From: Tritonibacter multivorans
GTDB taxonomy: Bacteria > Pseudomonadota > Alphaproteobacteria > Rhodobacterales > Rhodobacteraceae
Reading direction: 5' to 3'
DNA length: 64,000 nt
Assembly (NCBI RefSeq): GCF_001458415.1
Contig: NZ_CYSD01000039.1
Coordinates: 248,001 to 312,000, forward strand
A program made the translations under genes and the position numbers. The notes below the pieces were generated by a model. It made no database searches. It saw nothing but the letters and a program-made list of their open reading frames with translations, and had not been told where the DNA came from. Positions 18,859 through 25,275 of the stretch are shown piece by piece (position 1 is the stretch's first letter; every line of letters starts with the position of its first letter).

Positions 18859-20634
18859 ATGAAGCGAACTCTTGTGAAAAGAAGTGCCCTCCTCGCAGCG
18901 GTCCTGGTTCTGATCGGCGTGATCTCGGCTTTGGTGTGGACCTCGGCCTACCGTCAGGCTCTGGGATCTCTGGCAGAGCGGGGGGCGGCTGACCTTGCGC
19001 TGGCGTCGGACCGGGTGTCAGCGCAGCTGCAGATCTATCGAGAGTTGGCGGTCCTGATCGCGGACCACCCGGTTTTACGCGGTCTGAAGACGCCCGCCGG
19101 TCGCGAGATCGCGGCGGATCGGTTGCGGGGATATGCGGATAAGACTGGTGCGATGGATGTGTTCTATGCCAACGCCGACGGTCGGGTGCTCGCGGCAGCC
19201 GAAGGCGTGACAGGCCCTTCGGTGGCAGAGGAGAGATATTTTAAGCGCGCCGTTCAAGGCGGTTTAGGGGCGGCGCCGGCTGTTCTGGACAGTGGCGCGC
19301 GGGTGTATTTTTTTGCGGCTCCTGATTTCGGCCTCGATGGCGAAGTCCGCGGTGCGCTGGTTGTTGTTGCTGACGTGCAGTATCTGGAGCAAACTTGGCC
19401 GGGGTCTTTGCCTGCGGTCTATTTCACAACGCGCGCTGGTCAGGTGTTTATTTCCAACCGCTATGAGCTGTTGTTTTGGTATCGCAGCGAATTTGGCCCC
19501 GGAATTGCGCCCGAAGCCAGTGCGGCCCCGCGTCTGGAAGTCGGTGAAGCTTTGGGGCACGAAATCTGGCGTCCGGGGTGGAGCCCCTATCTGCCAAAGC
19601 GCGCGTTGCACCTTGGACGTGATATTGCGGCGATTGATATGCACGCTGACATTTTGGTGGATGTGGCGCCCGCCCGGCGCATTGCCACCTTGCAGGCGCT
19701 GAGCATGGGCGCGGTGCTGTTGGCCTCGGCGATGATGTTGTTTCTCGCGGCAGAACGGCGGCGCACGCTGGCAGAGGCCAATGCGGTGCTGGAAGTGCGG
19801 GTCGCGCGGCGCACGCGCGATTTGTCGGCGGCCAACCACCAGCTGAAGCGGGAGATCCATGAACGCGCCGAGGCTGAGGCTGCGCTGCGCCGCGCTGAAG
19901 CGGATCTGGTACGTGCAGATAAGCTTTCTGCGCTGGGGCGCATGTCGGCGGGCATCAGTCACGAACTGAACCAGCCCTTGATGGCCATTCAGCAGTTTGC
20001 TGAAAACGGCCGCGCCTTTCTGGACAGAGAGCGCCCCGAACGCGCAGGTGAGAATCTGGGTCGGATTGCCGACATGGCCACGCGTATGGGGCGGATAATT
20101 AAAAACCTGCGGGCCTTTGCCCGCAATGAGGCGGAGCCGTCGTCGCGGGTTGATCTGGTGAAGGTGGTCGAGGATGCCGTGGAGCTGACGCAGGCGCGGC
20201 TGCGCGAATGTTCGGTGCGCCTGGACTGGGTTCCGCAGCCGCGGGGAACGGTTTATGTACGCGGCGGTGAGGTCCGCCTGACGCAGGTCCTGGTGAACCT
20301 GATCAACAATGCGGTGGATGCCATGTTGGATCAAGAGAACCGGGAGATTCGCATTCATATCGGCCCGGCAGAAGGCGAAGCCACAGGGCGGCGTGCGGTC
20401 ACCGTGTCGGACATCGGGCCGGGCTTGAAGGAGCCTGAAAAAGTGTTTGATCCGTTCTATTCGACCAAAGCGGTCGGAGCTGTCGATGGCGAGGACGGGA
20501 TGGGCCTGGGACTGTCGATATCCTATGGGCTTGTGCAGAGTTTCGGCGGCAATATCCGGGGTCGAAACGGGGCCCAGGGGGCTGAATTTGCCGTGGAACT
20601 GGAAGACTGGAAAGAAGAGGAATACCCGCAATGA
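18859..20634 (+). CDS. dctB: Sensor histidine kinase of C4-dicarboxylate transport
   Basis: 591-residue membrane kinase. TM1 is at about 9-30, a periplasmic double-Cache sensing region at about 35-275, and TM2 at about 279-298. A coiled coil follows, then the HisKA box with phospho-acceptor His368 (GISHELNQPL) and an HATPase_c domain (LVNLINNAVDAM, then MGLGLSISYGLV). The architecture is that of DctB, which senses succinate, malate or fumarate. The last codons overlap dctD by 4 nt. The downstream TRAP transporter is its expected target. Confidence 0.92.
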   Translation: MKRTLVKRSALLAAVLVLIGVISALVWTSAYRQALGSLAERGAADLALASDRVSAQLQIYRELAVLIADHPVLRGLKTPAGREIAADRLRGYADKTGAMDVFYANADGRVLAAAEGVTGPSVAEERYFKRAVQGGLGAAPAVLDSGARVYFFAAPDFGLDGEVRGALVVVADVQYLEQTWPGSLPAVYFTTRAGQVFISNRYELLFWYRSEFGPGIAPEASAAPRLEVGEALGHEIWRPGWSPYLPKRALHLGRDIAAIDMHADILVDVAPARRIATLQALSMGAVLLASAMMLFLAAERRRTLAEANAVLEVRVARRTRDLSAANHQLKREIHERAEAEAALRRAEADLVRADKLSALGRMSAGISHELNQPLMAIQQFAENGRAFLDRERPERAGENLGRIADMATRMGRIIKNLRAFARNEAEPSSRVDLVKVVEDAVELTQARLRECSVRLDWVPQPRGTVYVRGGEVRLTQVLVNLINNAVDAMLDQENREIRIHIGPAEGEATGRRAVTVSDIGPGLKEPEKVFDPFYSTKAVGAVDGEDGMGLGLSISYGLVQSFGGNIRGRNGAQGAEFAVELEDWKEEEYPQ

Positions 20635-21860
20635 CGCGCAAAGTTTTGCTGGTGGATGATGACGCAGCGGTGCGCGAAGCCCTGGGACAAACGCTCGATC
20701 TGAATGATTTTGACGCCATTACGGCAGGGTCTTTTGTTGCAGCCAAAGATCATATTACTGCGGATTTCTCTGGGGTGATCCTGTCGGATTTGCGGATGCC
20801 GGGGCGCGATGGCTTCCATCTTCTGGATTATGCGCATGGCGTTGATGCAGAGCTGCCGGTGATCTTGCTGACGGGCGAAGGGGATATTCCCATGGCCGTC
20901 AAAGCGATGGGGCAGGGGGCTTTTGACTTTCTTGAAAAACCCTGCGCGCCGACGCATCTGACCTCGGTTTTGGACCGGGCGCTGCATACGCGGACCTTGG
21001 TGCTGGAAAACCGTCGCCTCAAAACCCAGTTGGAAAGCGGCGATGCGGCTGCGCGGATCCTCTTTGGAACCTCTCCGCAGGCGGATGCTTTGCGTGACCG
21101 CACACGGTCTGTTGCGCCAACAGAGGCCGAGGTGCTGATCGCTGGCCCGCCGGGCTGTGGGTTTACCAAGGTGGCCGAAGTTATCCATCTTATGTCGCAC
21201 CGCGCGCAGGGACCTTTTGTGAAACGACCCTGTGCCGGGCTGACCCCGGCGGCCTTGACCGAGATTGCGCAGGGGGCTGAGGGCGGGACCCTGTATCTGG
21301 ATGAGCCCTCAGCGCTGCCAGAGGCCTCGCAATATGCCCTGCTTGAGCTGCTGGAACACGACAGCCCCTGCCGCATTGTCTGTGGCGGCACGGCAGATTT
21401 GTCCGAGCTTGCGGGGAAGGGCGCGTTCTTGCCGGATCTGTTTTACCGGCTGGATGTGATGCGCGTGCGGATCCCGTCGCTTGCGGAGCGGCCAGAGGAC
21501 ATTCCAGTGCTGTTTCGTCATTATGTCAGCCAAGCGGCTGAACAGGCCGGGATTGAGGCACCAGAGCCAAGCCCGGACACACTCGCCGGTCTTATGGCGC
21601 AGGACTGGCCGGGCAATGCGCGGTCGCTGATGTCGGCGGCCATGCGATTTGTGCTGGGCATGCCTGAAGATGTGACTGAGGCCGGCAACCTTGGTCTCGC
21701 GGAACAGATGGCACAGGTTGAACGTTCGCTTCTTATTGCGGCGCTTGGGCGGCACAATGGCAAGGCCTCGGCCGCGGCCGAAGGGCTGAAGCTGCCGCGC
21801 AAGACCTTCTATGACAAGCTTGCGCGCTATGGGATTCGTCCCGATGACTATCGGCGTTGA
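20631..21860 (+). CDS. dctD: DctD-like response regulator with degenerate sigma-54 activator domain
   Basis: 409-residue NtrC-type regulator. The receiver domain has phospho-acceptor Asp53. An AAA-like domain spans about 145-300, and a Fis-type HTH lies near 385-405 (KLPRKTFYDKLARYGI). The ATPase core is degraded. The Walker A position reads GPPGCGFT (172-179), with Phe where Lys is required. The segment that should carry the sigma-54-contacting GAFTGA loop is absent (FVKRPCAGLTPAALTEIAQG runs straight into GGTLYLDE). The arginine-finger region reads FLPDLFYRL rather than FREDLYYRL. Walker B is intact. The frame is open throughout, so the changes are real. It probably acts without ATP-driven sigma-54 remodelling. 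Confidence 0.9.
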   Translation: MTRKVLLVDDDAAVREALGQTLDLNDFDAITAGSFVAAKDHITADFSGVILSDLRMPGRDGFHLLDYAHGVDAELPVILLTGEGDIPMAVKAMGQGAFDFLEKPCAPTHLTSVLDRALHTRTLVLENRRLKTQLESGDAAARILFGTSPQADALRDRTRSVAPTEAEVLIAGPPGCGFTKVAEVIHLMSHRAQGPFVKRPCAGLTPAALTEIAQGAEGGTLYLDEPSALPEASQYALLELLEHDSPCRIVCGGTADLSELAGKGAFLPDLFYRLDVMRVRIPSLAERPEDIPVLFRHYVSQAAEQAGIEAPEPSPDTLAGLMAQDWPGNARSLMSAAMRFVLGMPEDVTEAGNLGLAEQMAQVERSLLIAALGRHNGKASAAAEGLKLPRKTFYDKLARYGIRPDDYRR

Positions 21861-21897: not shown

Positions 21898-21917
21898 TTG
21901 TGCGGATTTCCGCACAA
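21898..21917. promoter_or_regulatory. DctD-type upstream activating site 1
   Basis: TTGTGCGGATTTCCGCACAA is a perfect 8-4-8 palindrome. It matches the DctD site known from rhizobial dctA promoters (TGTGCGGA-N-TCCGCACA type). It stands about 210 nt before dctP and 37 nt after the dctD stop. Confidence 0.85.
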
Positions 21918-21930
21918 TGCCGCGTAACAG

Positions 21931-21950
21931 CTGTGCGGGATTTCGCACAA
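21931..21950. promoter_or_regulatory. DctD-type upstream activating site 2
   Basis: TGTGCGGGATTTCGCACA is a second, slightly imperfect palindrome of the same type. Its centre is about 33 nt, or three helical turns, from that of site 1, so two dimers would sit on the same face of the DNA. No GG-N10-GC (-24/-12) promoter is visible between here and dctP. Confidence 0.8.
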
Positions 21951-22108
21951 GCCGGACACCAAGGGCTTAAGCCTTCCGAAGGTCACGGTTTTAGGCGTCT
22001 GAAAAGTAATGTTTTTTTGGATTTTCCGAGCGATTCTCGAATCGCCTCTTGAGTAGGCACAGAGCAGACATGATCCTGTCCCCCATCTGATTATCTTGGG
22101 AGGAAATC

Positions 22109-23113
22109 ATGAAACTGTTTACCGCAGCCGCCACAGCGCTGGCTCTGACTGTGACCGCTGGCGCTGCTTCTGCCGAGGCATGCCAAGACGGCGAGATCGT
22201 GGTGAAGTTCAGCCATGTGACCAACACCGACAAGCACCCGAAGGGCATTGCGGCCTCGCTGCTGGAAAAGCGCGTCAACGAAGAGATGGATGGCACCATG
22301 TGCATGGTCGTCTATCCGAACTCCACGCTGTATGATGATAACAAAGTGCTCGAAGCGATGCTGCAAGGCGACGTGCAGCTGGCGGCCCCTTCGCTGTCCA
22401 AGTTCGAGAAGTTCACCAAGCAGTTCCGCCTGTTTGACCTGCCGTTCATGTTCAAAAACATCGACGCGGTGGATGCGTTCCAGGGGTCCGAGCACGGTCA
22501 AGCCATGCTGGACAGCATGCAGCGCCGCGGCCTGCAGGGTCTGGCCTACTGGCACAATGGCATGAAGCAGATGTCTGCAAACAAGCCGCTGCTTGCGCCC
22601 TCTGACGCAAATGGCCTGAAGTTCCGCGTTCAGTCCTCGGACGTGCTGGTTGCTCAAATGGAAGCCATCGGTGGTTCGCCGCAGAAAATGGCCTTCTCCG
22701 AGGTTTACGGCGCGCTGCAGCAGGGCGTTGTCGACGGTCAGGAAAACACCTGGTCCAATATCTACGGCAAGAAGTTCTTTGAGGTGCAGGATGGGATCAC
22801 TGAAACCGACCACGGCATCATCGACTATCTGGTTGTGACCAATATCGACTGGCTGGAAAGCCTGGACCCTGCTGTGCGTGACCAGTTCACCACCATTCTG
22901 GGTGAAGTCACCGCAACCCGGAACGCGGAATCCACCAAAGTGAACAATGATGCCAAAGCGGCGATTGTTGAAGCAGGCGGTACCGTGCGCACTCTGGATG
23001 GCGAACAGCGTCAGGCTTGGGTCGACGTGATGAAGCCGGTTTGGGCGCAGTTTGCAGGCGACGTTGGTCAGGACATGATCGACGCGGCGCAGTCCATCAA
23101 CGCAGGCTTCTAA
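22109..23113 (+). CDS. dctP: TRAP transporter substrate-binding protein, C4-dicarboxylate type
   Basis: 334-residue periplasmic binding protein. A Sec signal peptide covers residues 1 to about 22 (cleavage near ASAEA). The DctP fold follows, with the conserved ligand-clamping region GLKFRVQSSDVL (about 170-182). GGGAGGAAATC precedes ATG 22109. It captures dicarboxylates for DctQM. A GC-rich stem-loop after the stop (23150-23169) separates it from dctQ, a usual way to keep the binding protein in excess over the membrane subunits. Confidence 0.92.
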   Translation: MKLFTAAATALALTVTAGAASAEACQDGEIVVKFSHVTNTDKHPKGIAASLLEKRVNEEMDGTMCMVVYPNSTLYDDNKVLEAMLQGDVQLAAPSLSKFEKFTKQFRLFDLPFMFKNIDAVDAFQGSEHGQAMLDSMQRRGLQGLAYWHNGMKQMSANKPLLAPSDANGLKFRVQSSDVLVAQMEAIGGSPQKMAFSEVYGALQQGVVDGQENTWSNIYGKKFFEVQDGITETDHGIIDYLVVTNIDWLESLDPAVRDQFTTILGEVTATRNAESTKVNNDAKAAIVEAGGTVRTLDGEQRQAWVDVMKPVWAQFAGDVGQDMIDAAQSINAGF

Positions 23114-23169: not shown

Positions 23170-23224
23170 GGCACCTTCACGGCAGGGGAGCTGCCGCATT
23201 TTCCGGAAAAATGGGGAGTACACC

Positions 23225-23899
23225 ATGTCGGGGGCAACCACCGGCCCATCCGGGCTGATCACAAAGCTCGAGGAGACGCTGATCGCAGCCATCCTCGGCG
23301 CTATGACCGCAATCACTTTTGCCAATGTGATTGCACGCTTTATGAATTCCAACATCCTTTGGGCGCTTGAACTGACCGTGTTCCTGTTTGCCTGGCTGGT
23401 GCTGCTGGGCGCGTCTTACGCGGTAAAGGTACATGCGCATCTGGGCGTGGATGTTATCTTGAACATCCTGCCTGAAGGCGTGCGCCGCATTGTCAGCCTG
23501 TTTGCCGCAGCCTGCTGCATCGTGTTCTCGCTGCTGCTTTTGAAAGGCGCTTATGACTATTGGGCGGTCTTTGCGGATCTGCCGCCGACCTCGGGACGCT
23601 GGTTCCCCACTGGGTTGGACCTCAAAGCGCGCAGCCAAAGCTTCTATGAGGTGCAGGACGTTCCCATGCTGGGTATCTTCCGCTTCCTTGAAGACCTGAT
23701 CAACTATGGCGATTCTTACGAGAAATTGCCGAAAGTGGTGCCCTATGTGGTGCTGCCGGTGTCCATGCTGCTGCTGGTCTACCGCTTTGTTCAGGCTGCC
23801 ATCCAGATTGCCCGTGGCGATGCTGACCGTCTGGTCGCCAGCCACGAAGTTGAAGACGAGCTCGCCGAAGTGCGCGCCCAGCAAGGAGAGCATGACTAA
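23225..23899 (+). CDS. dctQ: TRAP transporter small permease
   Basis: 224-residue membrane subunit with four predicted helices (about 24-42, 50-68, 88-108, 175-196) and an acidic C-terminal tail. ATG 23225 behind GGGGAG is chosen; the longer frame from 23144 runs through the stem-loop. An extra stretch between helices 3 and 4 (about 110-170) makes it longer than the minimal DctQ. Its stop shares one base with the dctM start (TAATG). Confidence 0.9.
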   Translation: MSGATTGPSGLITKLEETLIAAILGAMTAITFANVIARFMNSNILWALELTVFLFAWLVLLGASYAVKVHAHLGVDVILNILPEGVRRIVSLFAAACCIVFSLLLLKGAYDYWAVFADLPPTSGRWFPTGLDLKARSQSFYEVQDVPMLGIFRFLEDLINYGDSYEKLPKVVPYVVLPVSMLLLVYRFVQAAIQIARGDADRLVASHEVEDELAEVRAQQGEHD

Positions 23900-25275
23900 T
23901 GGAAGTCGTCCTTCTATTCGCCCTGGTCATTGGCCTTTTGCTGATCGGCGTTCCGATCGCGGTGGCTCTTGGCCTGTCCTCCACCCTGTTCCTGCTGTTG
24001 TTCTCTGACAGCTCTTTGGCGTCCGTTGCCGGGACCTTGTTCCAGGCTTTTGAGGGTCACTTTACCCTGCTGGCGATCCCCTTCTTTATCCTGGCGTCAT
24101 CCTTCATGACGACAGGGGGCGTGGCGCGGCGGATCATCCGCTTCTCCATCGCCTGTGTAGGCCACCTGCCGGGTGGTCTGGCGATTGCAGGTGTGTTTGC
24201 CTGTATGCTGTTTGCGGCGCTGTCCGGCTCCTCCCCTGCCACAGTTGTTGCCATCGGTACCATTGTGATCGCCGGCATGCGGCAGGTGGGCTACACGAAG
24301 GATTTTGCGGCGGGCGTGATCTGTAACGCAGGTACGCTGGGCATCCTGATCCCGCCGTCCATTGTGATGGTCGTTTATGCCGCCGCGGTTGAGGTGTCGG
24401 TGGGCCGGATGTTCCTTGCGGGCGTCATTCCGGGCCTGATGGCAGGTATCATGCTGATGATCACCATCTATGTGATGGCCAAGGTCAAGAACCTGCCCAA
24501 AGGCGAATGGCAGGGGTGGGGCGAGATCTTTGCCTCTGCCAAAGAAGCTGGCTGGGGTCTGTTCCTGATCGTGATTATCCTTGGCGGTATCTATGGTGGT
24601 ATCTTCACCCCGACCGAGGCCGCAGCGGTGGCGGCTGTCTATGCTTTTGTGATCGCGACCTTTATCTACAAAGACATGGGTCCGCTTTCCAATGGTGAAG
24701 ACGCGCCGAAGACTTCGCTGTTGCGCAAGCCGCATGCGATTATCACGGCGCTGATCCACCCGGATACCAAACACACCTTGTTTGAAGCTGGCAAGCTGAC
24801 CGTGACCCTGCTGTTTGTGATCGCCAACGCGCTGATCCTGAAGCATGTGCTGACCGACGAACAAATCCCGCAGCATATTGCAAATGCGATGCTGTCGGCT
24901 GGCTTTGGTCCGGTGATGTTCCTTGTGGTGGTGAACGTGATCCTGCTGATCGGCGGGCAGTTCATGGAGCCTTCGGGGCTTCTGGTGATCGTGGCGCCGC
25001 TGGTGTTCCCGATTGCGATCGAGCTGGGTATTGATCCGATCCATCTGGGCATCATCATGGTTGTCAACATGGAGATCGGCATGATCACCCCGCCGGTTGG
25101 CCTGAACCTTTTCGTGACCTCGGGTGTCGCGGGCATGCCAATGATGTCCGTGGTGCGCGCAGCGCTTCCTTTCCTGGCGGTTCTGTTCGTGTTCCTGATC
25201 CTGATCACCTATGTGCCGTTCCTGTCGACCGCATTGCCCAATGCGATTATGGGACCGGAGATCATCACCAAGTAA
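23899..25275 (+). CDS. dctM: TRAP transporter large permease
   Basis: 458-residue membrane subunit that couples dicarboxylate uptake to sodium or proton flow. About 12-13 helices are visible, with family segments such as ALSGSSPATVVAIGTI (about 106-121), GTLGILIPPSIVMVVYA and GMITPPVGLNLFV. A central hydrophilic stretch near 255-285 is longer than in the shortest homologues. Translation is coupled to dctQ. A strong terminator follows the stop after 22 nt. Confidence 0.93.
   Translation: MEVVLLFALVIGLLLIGVPIAVALGLSSTLFLLLFSDSSLASVAGTLFQAFEGHFTLLAIPFFILASSFMTTGGVARRIIRFSIACVGHLPGGLAIAGVFACMLFAALSGSSPATVVAIGTIVIAGMRQVGYTKDFAAGVICNAGTLGILIPPSIVMVVYAAAVEVSVGRMFLAGVIPGLMAGIMLMITIYVMAKVKNLPKGEWQGWGEIFASAKEAGWGLFLIVIILGGIYGGIFTPTEAAAVAAVYAFVIATFIYKDMGPLSNGEDAPKTSLLRKPHAIITALIHPDTKHTLFEAGKLTVTLLFVIANALILKHVLTDEQIPQHIANAMLSAGFGPVMFLVVVNVILLIGGQFMEPSGLLVIVAPLVFPIAIELGIDPIHLGIIMVVNMEIGMITPPVGLNLFVTSGVAGMPMMSVVRAALPFLAVLFVFLILITYVPFLSTALPNAIMGPEIITK

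Follow-up and report, generated by a model that had tools for sequence, protein, structure and literature searches.

Loss of the GAFTGA loop and Walker A lysine in a DctD-like regulator of Tritonibacter multivorans suggests a former sigma-54 activator now working with a housekeeping sigma factor

The window analysed here, a 64,000-nucleotide stretch of Tritonibacter multivorans DNA (contig NZ_CYSD01000039.1, positions 248,001 to 312,000), carries both neighbours expected of a DctB-DctD pair: dctB lies upstream of dctD, and the TRAP transporter genes dctPQM lie downstream, across a gap of about 250 bp (Table 1). Our subject is the response regulator DctD, a relative of the sigma-54-dependent activators that has neither the GAFTGA motif nor the Walker A lysine. 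From the features set out below we consider it probable (roughly 0.77) that this protein is a former sigma-54 regulator of C4-dicarboxylate uptake, rebuilt for the housekeeping sigma-70-type RNA polymerase and acting as a phosphorylation-controlled activator without ATP hydrolysis.

The dctD reading frame is uninterrupted and matches the Pfam families Response_reg, Sigma54_activat (in two stretches), AAA lid and HTH_8. An original prediction, made from the sequence of the window, had described an open frame with an intact receiver Asp53, Walker B motif and Fis-type helix-turn-helix (HTH), all of which frame, Pfam matches and alignment bear out, and a Walker A lysine replaced by phenylalanine, which is indeed Phe178 in GPPGCGFTK. 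We compared 107 aligned rows of the clade to which the window protein belongs with 37 canonical DctD rows, taken as those with the Walker A lysine and with GAFTGA or a near form (GAFTDA, GSFTSA). The lysine is present in 37/37 canonical rows vs 0/107 clade rows, where the site is occupied by Ile (61), Thr (25), Val (14), Asn (3), Met (1) and, in two further rows, others; Phe occurs in the window only within this set. Two residues further on, at position 180, the pattern is inverted, with Lys in 106 clade rows and Arg in the other, and Leu, Val, Met or Gln but never Lys in the 37 canonical rows.

Two deletions accompany the change in the P-loop. The region from Phe196 to the Walker B glutamate spans 30 residues in 107/107 clade rows vs 49 in 37/37 canonical rows, and the GAFTGA loop, L1, is gone; the loss of about 25 residues at this place in the original prediction is therefore real, although its size is 19. 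A further deletion of about 12 residues, not named there, shortens the L2/pre-sensor I region to 31 residues in 80/107 clade rows vs 43 in 37/37 canonical rows. In canonical activators L1 and L2 are reported to be turned towards sigma-54 and promoter DNA and to touch both (PMC7057263). The arginine-finger region had also been called altered, and this holds for the first site, which is Arg in 37/37 canonical rows, Leu in the window and most often Asn (51), Ser (20), His (14), Leu (9), Asp (3) or Val (3) among the 107 clade rows, but not for the second, which remains Arg in the window (Arg in 93 and Lys in 12 clade rows). With one arginine finger, the Walker A lysine and both sigma-54-contacting loops lost or shortened, ATP hydrolysis is not expected.

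The rest of the protein has been kept. The phospho-acceptor Asp53 and the key HTH residues are present in 107/107 clade rows, as are Gly175, Gly177 and Arg331 (of sensor-II type by sequence reading), while the Walker B Asp and Glu are present in 103 and 94, respectively. A fold model built from 48 aligned sequences (predicted local distance difference test, pLDDT, 90.3; predicted template-modelling score, pTM, 0.56) matches NtrX, NtrC1, FleQ and VpsR (7v2b, rank 13) and indicates that the AAA+ fold is retained; a single-sequence fold (pLDDT 47.6) was not used.

Table 1. Features of the dct locus, with positions in the window
Feature	Position	Strand	Basis or remark
dctB-like sensor histidine kinase, 591 residues	18859..20634	+	HisKA and HATPase_c matches; end overlaps dctD
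dctD-like response regulator, 409 residues, without GAFTGA and Walker A lysine	20631..21860	+	Pfam, alignment
Degenerate P-loop GPPGCGFTK, residues 172-180; lysine site is Phe178	21144..21170	+	alignment
Lys180, conserved lysine of the clade, 2 residues past Phe178	21168-21170	+	alignment
Phe196 to Walker B Glu225, 19 residues shorter than canonical DctD (L1 with GAFTGA)	21216..21305	+	
Walker B to sensor I, residues 226-256, about 12 shorter than canonical (L2/pre-sensor I loop)	21306..21398	+	
Operator 1, TGTGCGGATTTCCGCACA	21899..21916	.	perfect TGTGCG-N6-CGCACA match
Operator 2, TGTGCGGGATTTCGCACA	21932..21949	.	33 bp past operator 1
-35-like TTGAGT	22049..22054	+	150 bp from operator 1 start
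-10-like GATCCT	22072..22077	+	17-bp spacer
dctP, TRAP solute-binding subunit	22109..23113	+	TIGR00787 above cut-off
dctQ, small TRAP permease	23219..23899	+	match under curated cut-off; start uncertain, 23144 also possible
dctM, large TRAP permease	23899..25275	+	TIGR00786 above cut-off

The clade was assembled from two sources. A survey covering 149 genomes from the family to which the window belongs found a window-type DctD in 66 (64 rows aligned whole, one with a stop and one partial), and a collection scan, in which the best 80 of 584 relatives were taken, gave 43 named loci (L105-L147), from genera including Phaeobacter, Ruegeria, Roseovarius, Shimia, Sulfitobacter, Salipiger, Yoonia, Nereida and Defluviimonas. 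The 107 rows are partly dependent, as five named loci share a promoter with survey loci. Rows were classed by motif, and lysine and GAFTGA are both absent from all 107; identity to the window yields the identical set, as both motifs are missing from each of the 66 survey loci (by blastp) and each of the 43 named loci that reach 51%, while L080, at 49%, keeps the lysine. Among the named clade loci a DctB relative lies directly upstream in 43/43 and DctP downstream in 38/43. Conservation across the clade rules out chance or a sequencing or assembly error as the source of the losses. Judged by this conservation, the window DctD is a member of a conserved family and not a product of decay.

Trees were drawn from a table of 169 rows, from which L001, L002 and L005 (NtrC-, NtrX- and HupR-like by sequence reading), L015 (a copy of the window), L039 (the window-type dctD of G009, with an in-frame stop), L096 (partial) and L163 (a named copy, out of frame) had been left out. 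In the larger tree, of 116 rows, a single branch holds all 74 lysine-less rows and no others; in a careful tree of 46 rows, with the motif columns removed, the 17 lysine-less rows again share one branch (support 99/97). This clade joins L080 and a group without Walker B acids (L081, L084, L086 and L092, with L090 in the larger tree) on a branch of support 99/97, within which the order of L080 and the Walker-B-less group is weak (86/61). Next out are the canonical L082 and L094, from genomes with rpoN (100/98). L080 is intermediate, having lost GAFTGA and kept the lysine and nearly all of L2, and the tree suggests that GAFTGA was lost first and that L2 and the lysine followed. The five Walker-B-less proteins keep the Walker A lysine and read SLKN, SIKH, TLKG or SCKS where the acids should be, which would amount to a second route to a dead ATPase.

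Another way to view these losses is through the relative conservation of the protein's parts. In 30 rows drawn from each set, mean identity in the clade is 67% for the receiver, 68% for the lid, 69% for the HTH and 51% from Walker A to Walker B, vs 52%, 56%, 48% and 61% in the canonical set, which is taxonomically wider, so that identities can be compared between parts only. The Walker A-to-B segment is therefore the least conserved of these parts in the clade, and the canonical set shows the reverse.

The region upstream of dctP was compared across 59 survey loci and a union of 92 distinct promoters, both sets including the intermediate L080 and the partial L096 (in 8 of 67 survey loci no dctP was found within the fetched stretch). 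The two operator palindromes stand 32-34 bp apart in 48/59 survey loci, and the named clade loci with DctP have at least one operator in 38/38 and two in 32. These tandem TGTGCG-type operators presumably resemble the rhizobial DctD site. TTGA occurs 146-152 bp past the start of operator 1 in 34/59 survey loci (500 shuffles: mean 1.6, maximum 7) and in 13/38 named loci (1000 shuffles: mean 1.1, maximum 5), and TTG is found there in 77/92 promoters (1000 shuffles: mean 10.8, maximum 25). Of these 77, 53 have a T directly after the 17-bp spacer, at +23, and 69 have one five bases further on, at +28, in a TTG-N20-TTNNNT pattern. We take the dctP core promoter to be a probable sigma-70-type -35/-10 pair, held at a nearly fixed distance from the operators.

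Canonical loci differ at exactly this point. A strict sigma-54 box, TGG-N9-TGC, stands at all 8 canonical loci where dctP is in reach but at 0/38 named clade loci, with 2 loose hits among the 92 promoters of the union, neither of them in the window. Five of the 8 also carry at least one operator (L153, L156 and L179, all from Thalassospira, L166 and L082), and no operator was found at L152, L158 and L162. The operators have therefore been kept and the core promoter differs. A CACAA element, possibly a third half-operator, lies 12 bp upstream of the -35 in 9/34 clade dctP promoters (1000 shuffles: mean 0.19, maximum 3).

The window genome (4.17 Mb, 99.94% complete) gave no match to the sigma-54 DNA-binding domain (PF04552) at E<=0.001 and none to the core-binding domain (PF04963) even at E<=10, in a search for rpoN whose controls, E. 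coli, B. subtilis and Caulobacter, were all positive. It encodes six activators of the family that includes DctD, identified by sequence reading as NtrC, NtrX, a HupR-like and three DctD-like proteins, and all six are without GAFTGA. One of them, L003 on C24, belongs to a kinase/DctD-like pair beside a TRAP-type solute-binding gene and retains its P-loop lysine. When all activators at E 1e-6 were read, GA/SFTGA was present in 0/36 from eight further genomes without rpoN vs 15/51 from eight genomes with it, with at least one per genome in the latter (one weak match, G035:C6, lies outside the 51).

Across the survey, rpoN is present in 43/149 genomes, that is, in the 44 above the PF04552 cut-off minus G075 (23.2 bits over 41 positions, just above it); G075 was counted as absent, as were G022, G095, G110 and G115, whose matches fall below the cut-off, and the rpoN of G031 and of G021 is a fragment. 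Forty-two of the 43 gave an intact GA/SFT-A motif on reading (G046, G080, G082 and G125 among them). The remaining one, G031, has a rpoN fragment with an internal stop near an IstB-like open reading frame (L292, contig C54, 1297-1632) and no intact motif in the activators read; its rpoN is apparently in the process of loss. Among the 106 genomes without rpoN, 24, including G094, reach E 1e-57 or better with PF00158. At those matches the motif is broken in 21, Pro at position 4 or another substitution being the usual cause, and intact in three (G068, G122, G147), whose assemblies are 73-76% complete and may simply be missing rpoN. The other 82 have no PF00158 match that good; the lowest-scoring intact motif read stands at 210.5 bits and the cut at about 196, and an odd intact activator may lie below it. 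Overall, an intact motif accompanies rpoN in 42/43 genomes vs 3/106 without it. An earlier comparison by score gave a Fisher p of 6e-24, with kinship ignored. The PF00158 score cut of 5e-63 used as a proxy for an intact motif, chosen after 16 genomes had been seen, was dropped in favour of reading the motif letters. It had proved a poor guide, since six of the nine genomes without rpoN that passed it turned out to have broken motifs, while two genomes with rpoN that fell short of it had intact ones. Among 21 named genomes, those with rpoN are 5/5 with a canonical DctD and 3/16 with the window type (one match below the cut-off not counted), and three Ruegeria genomes searched have a window-type DctD and no rpoN.

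For the window DctD, then, GAFTGA, the P-loop lysine, rpoN and a -24/-12 box are all absent, while the two marks of the GAFTGA-less housekeeping activators, loss of GAFTGA and a sigma-70-type target promoter, are found at the level of sequence, and we conclude that it is likely to work as those activators do. The sigma-70-type regulator of the original prediction is thus supported by the lack of rpoN, by losses shared among orthologues and by a -35/-10 pair without a sigma-54 box. In the scheme we propose, dicarboxylate sensed by DctB would lead to phosphorylation of Asp53, as the intact kinase and receiver suggest, and phosphorylated DctD would occupy the conserved palindromes at 21899 and 21932. 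From 100-150 bp upstream it would then aid polymerase at TTGAGT-N17-GATCCT and so raise transcription of dctPQM, with the AAA+ fold left as a platform for oligomerisation or contact, perhaps still binding nucleotide. The ancestor would have been a normal sigma-54 activator, and most lineages today are without rpoN.

Mutants of Ruegeria pomeroyi bear on the direction of control. Its dctMPQ is reported to carry fumarate, malate and succinate, and mutation of SPO2630 to reduce growth on fumarate by 96.9%, compared with 99.1 and 96.7% for transporter mutants, with growth on succinate lost likewise (PMC10130141). SPO2630 lies beside dctMPQ and is annotated as a C4-dicarboxylate transport sensor protein (PMC4809877); it has also been called a TRAP regulatory protein (PMC10041152). 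The phenotype fits positive control of dctMPQ.

Several observations weigh against the proposed scheme. Matches to rpoN occur in 12 of the 66 survey genomes with a window-type DctD (11 non-fragment matches plus G031), and therefore rpoN loss alone does not explain the change; as 7 of the 10 with a readable promoter already have TTG at the sigma-70-type place, we rejected the idea that rpoN loss caused the change in DctD. The promoter is imperfectly conserved: a second operator is missing at up to 2 mismatches in 11/59 survey loci, TTG is missing from its expected place in 15/92 promoters, and TTGA is present in only 46/92. The consensus -10, TTCACT, has no A at position 2, where sigma-70 promoters usually have one. 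The P-loop flanks are 75% conserved in the clade, so nucleotide binding may persist, and the wider taxonomic range of the canonical set limits the comparison of identities. Finally, the R. pomeroyi mutation lies in the sensor rather than in dctD, and the insertion may be polar.

The persistence of the P-loop, which appears altered rather than erased and may still bind ATP, leads to the strongest alternative, namely that the scheme is right except that ATP must be bound, though not hydrolysed, perhaps through Lys180. We regard this as possible, though clearly the less favoured form. Gly175, Gly177 and Arg331 are invariant, position 180 is Lys or Arg in 107/107 rows, and the Walker B Asp is kept in 103/107. 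The canonical P-loop lysine contacts nucleotide phosphates, however, and on general grounds a lysine at position 180 would face another way in the helix. For Rhodobacter capsulatus NtrC the reported requirement is that ATP be bound, not that it be hydrolysed, while Caulobacter with its NtrC mutated at the Walker A lysine is reported to fail to grow in defined medium (PMC10274813).

The original prediction had left open whether this DctD is an activator or a repressor. As a repressor, DctD would keep dctPQM off until DctB-dependent phosphorylation lifted it; GAFTGA-less relatives can do this, since Caulobacter NtrC is described as repressing at CtrA-activated promoters (PMC10274813), and a sensor mutant alone could equally trap a repressor. 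However, the operators lie some 100-150 bp upstream of the -35 and not over the promoter, the -10 is poor, as at activator-dependent promoters, and like operators are found upstream of dctP beside the canonical DctD of Thalassospira. Repression is thus improbable, and because of the operator positions and the growth loss of the R. pomeroyi sensor mutant, activation is the half of that claim we favour.

Two further readings we reject as close to excluded: a decaying, functionless pseudogene, for which the lost catalytic residues and the disrupted L039 and L163 might speak, is contradicted by 107 open rows, the DctB neighbour in 43/43 loci, constant Asp53, HTH and L1 length, and conserved operators; and sigma-54 activation in which an intact partner makes up a mixed hexamer with DctD, to which HrpR/HrpS offers a parallel (PMC7057263), finds in the window genome no rpoN, no intact partner and no sigma-54 box at dctP, the absence of rpoN ruling it out for such genomes.

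Housekeeping-sigma activation by GAFTGA-less family members is already known (PMC3162934, PMC10274813), and the precedent of Rhodobacter NtrC that the original prediction had invoked is stated in the latter. There R. capsulatus NtrC, without GAFTGA as are NtrC proteins of other Rhodobacterales, is reported to activate with sigma-70 and to need phosphorylation; the NtrC-like proteins read here (named by sequence reading) keep the Walker A lysine, in GESGTGKS, whereas the window DctD does not. HupR of R. capsulatus, TyrR and DhaR also have GAFTGA lost or altered and are described as sigma-70 dependent (PMC3162934), but respond to other signals and have other targets; neither the P-loop lysine nor a promoter conversion is mentioned in the cited passages on them. 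VpsR of Vibrio cholerae shares the lack of GAFTGA and sigma-70 promoters, with ATP reported as unnecessary (PMC10274813), but has cyclic di-GMP as ligand (title of 7v2b) and does not belong to a DctB/DctD pair. Caulobacter NtrC has an eight-residue deletion at GAFTGA and regulates sigma-70 promoters; unlike what we expect of the window DctD, it is reported to need its Walker A and B residues for growth, and Caulobacter itself keeps two GAFTGA-bearing activators (PMC10274813). Canonical DctD (Thalassospira, Sinorhizobium, L082) shares about 40-44% identity and the DctB neighbour with the window protein, and at the Thalassospira and L082 loci operators of the same kind, but differs in its intact P-loop, L1 and L2, in its sigma-54 box and in the presence of rpoN.

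Among the literature matches listed we met no GAFTGA-less or lysine-less DctD, no account of rpoN loss across Rhodobacteraceae, no P-loop lysine lost throughout a clade that conserves a second lysine two positions along, no placement of the L1, L2 and lysine losses on a tree, no promoter difference under unchanged operators, no co-occurrence of intact motif and rpoN across this family, and no wet-lab test. The significance of the ordered series from canonical through GAFTGA-less to P-loop-dead proteins, with a matching change of promoter, is that it would trace a path from ATP-driven enhancer binding to ordinary activation, in which a regulatory circuit is rewired while its DNA address is retained, and that it makes the role of AAA+ activators without hydrolysis directly testable, on a target that is real in a Roseobacter, since R. 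pomeroyi needs dctMPQ to grow on fumarate (PMC10130141). There is also a practical consequence. Given intact motifs in nearly all genomes with rpoN and few without it, such a gene is a poor sign of sigma-54 control until its motif has been read, and relatives are commonly annotated as sigma-54 dependent (plasmid hits, named by annotation alone).

A more tentative proposal, which we think has perhaps some merit but is unlikely in full, is that protein and promoter of the sigma-54 circuit were converted jointly and in place: the old -12 TTGC would have become the new -35 TTG(A/C) under unmoved enhancer operators, and the lysine two residues along the P-loop would have taken a new, non-hydrolytic role. 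The activators of the family would have left sigma-54 by several such routes in parallel (L1 loss, GAFPGA and Walker B loss), which permitted repeated loss of rpoN. The -12 TTGC lies 147-148 bp from operator 1 in the three Thalassospira loci, all of one genus, and TTGC occupies the -35 place in 18/92 clade promoters (shuffle mean 2.8, maximum 8), both of which fit. It lies at about 125 bp in L166 and 112 bp in L082, however, and the intermediate L080 already has TTGA, which weigh against a conversion of -12 into -35.

A long L1 with Pro in place of Thr (GAFPGA, GSFPGA and near forms) occurs in genomes both with and without rpoN, at L087, L091, L093, L095, L102, L185, L262, L263, L264, L266, L267, L275, L279 and several of L325-L336. 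A preference for Pro at position 4 of GAFTGA has been described, and Jannaschia is named for a change there (PMC3162934).

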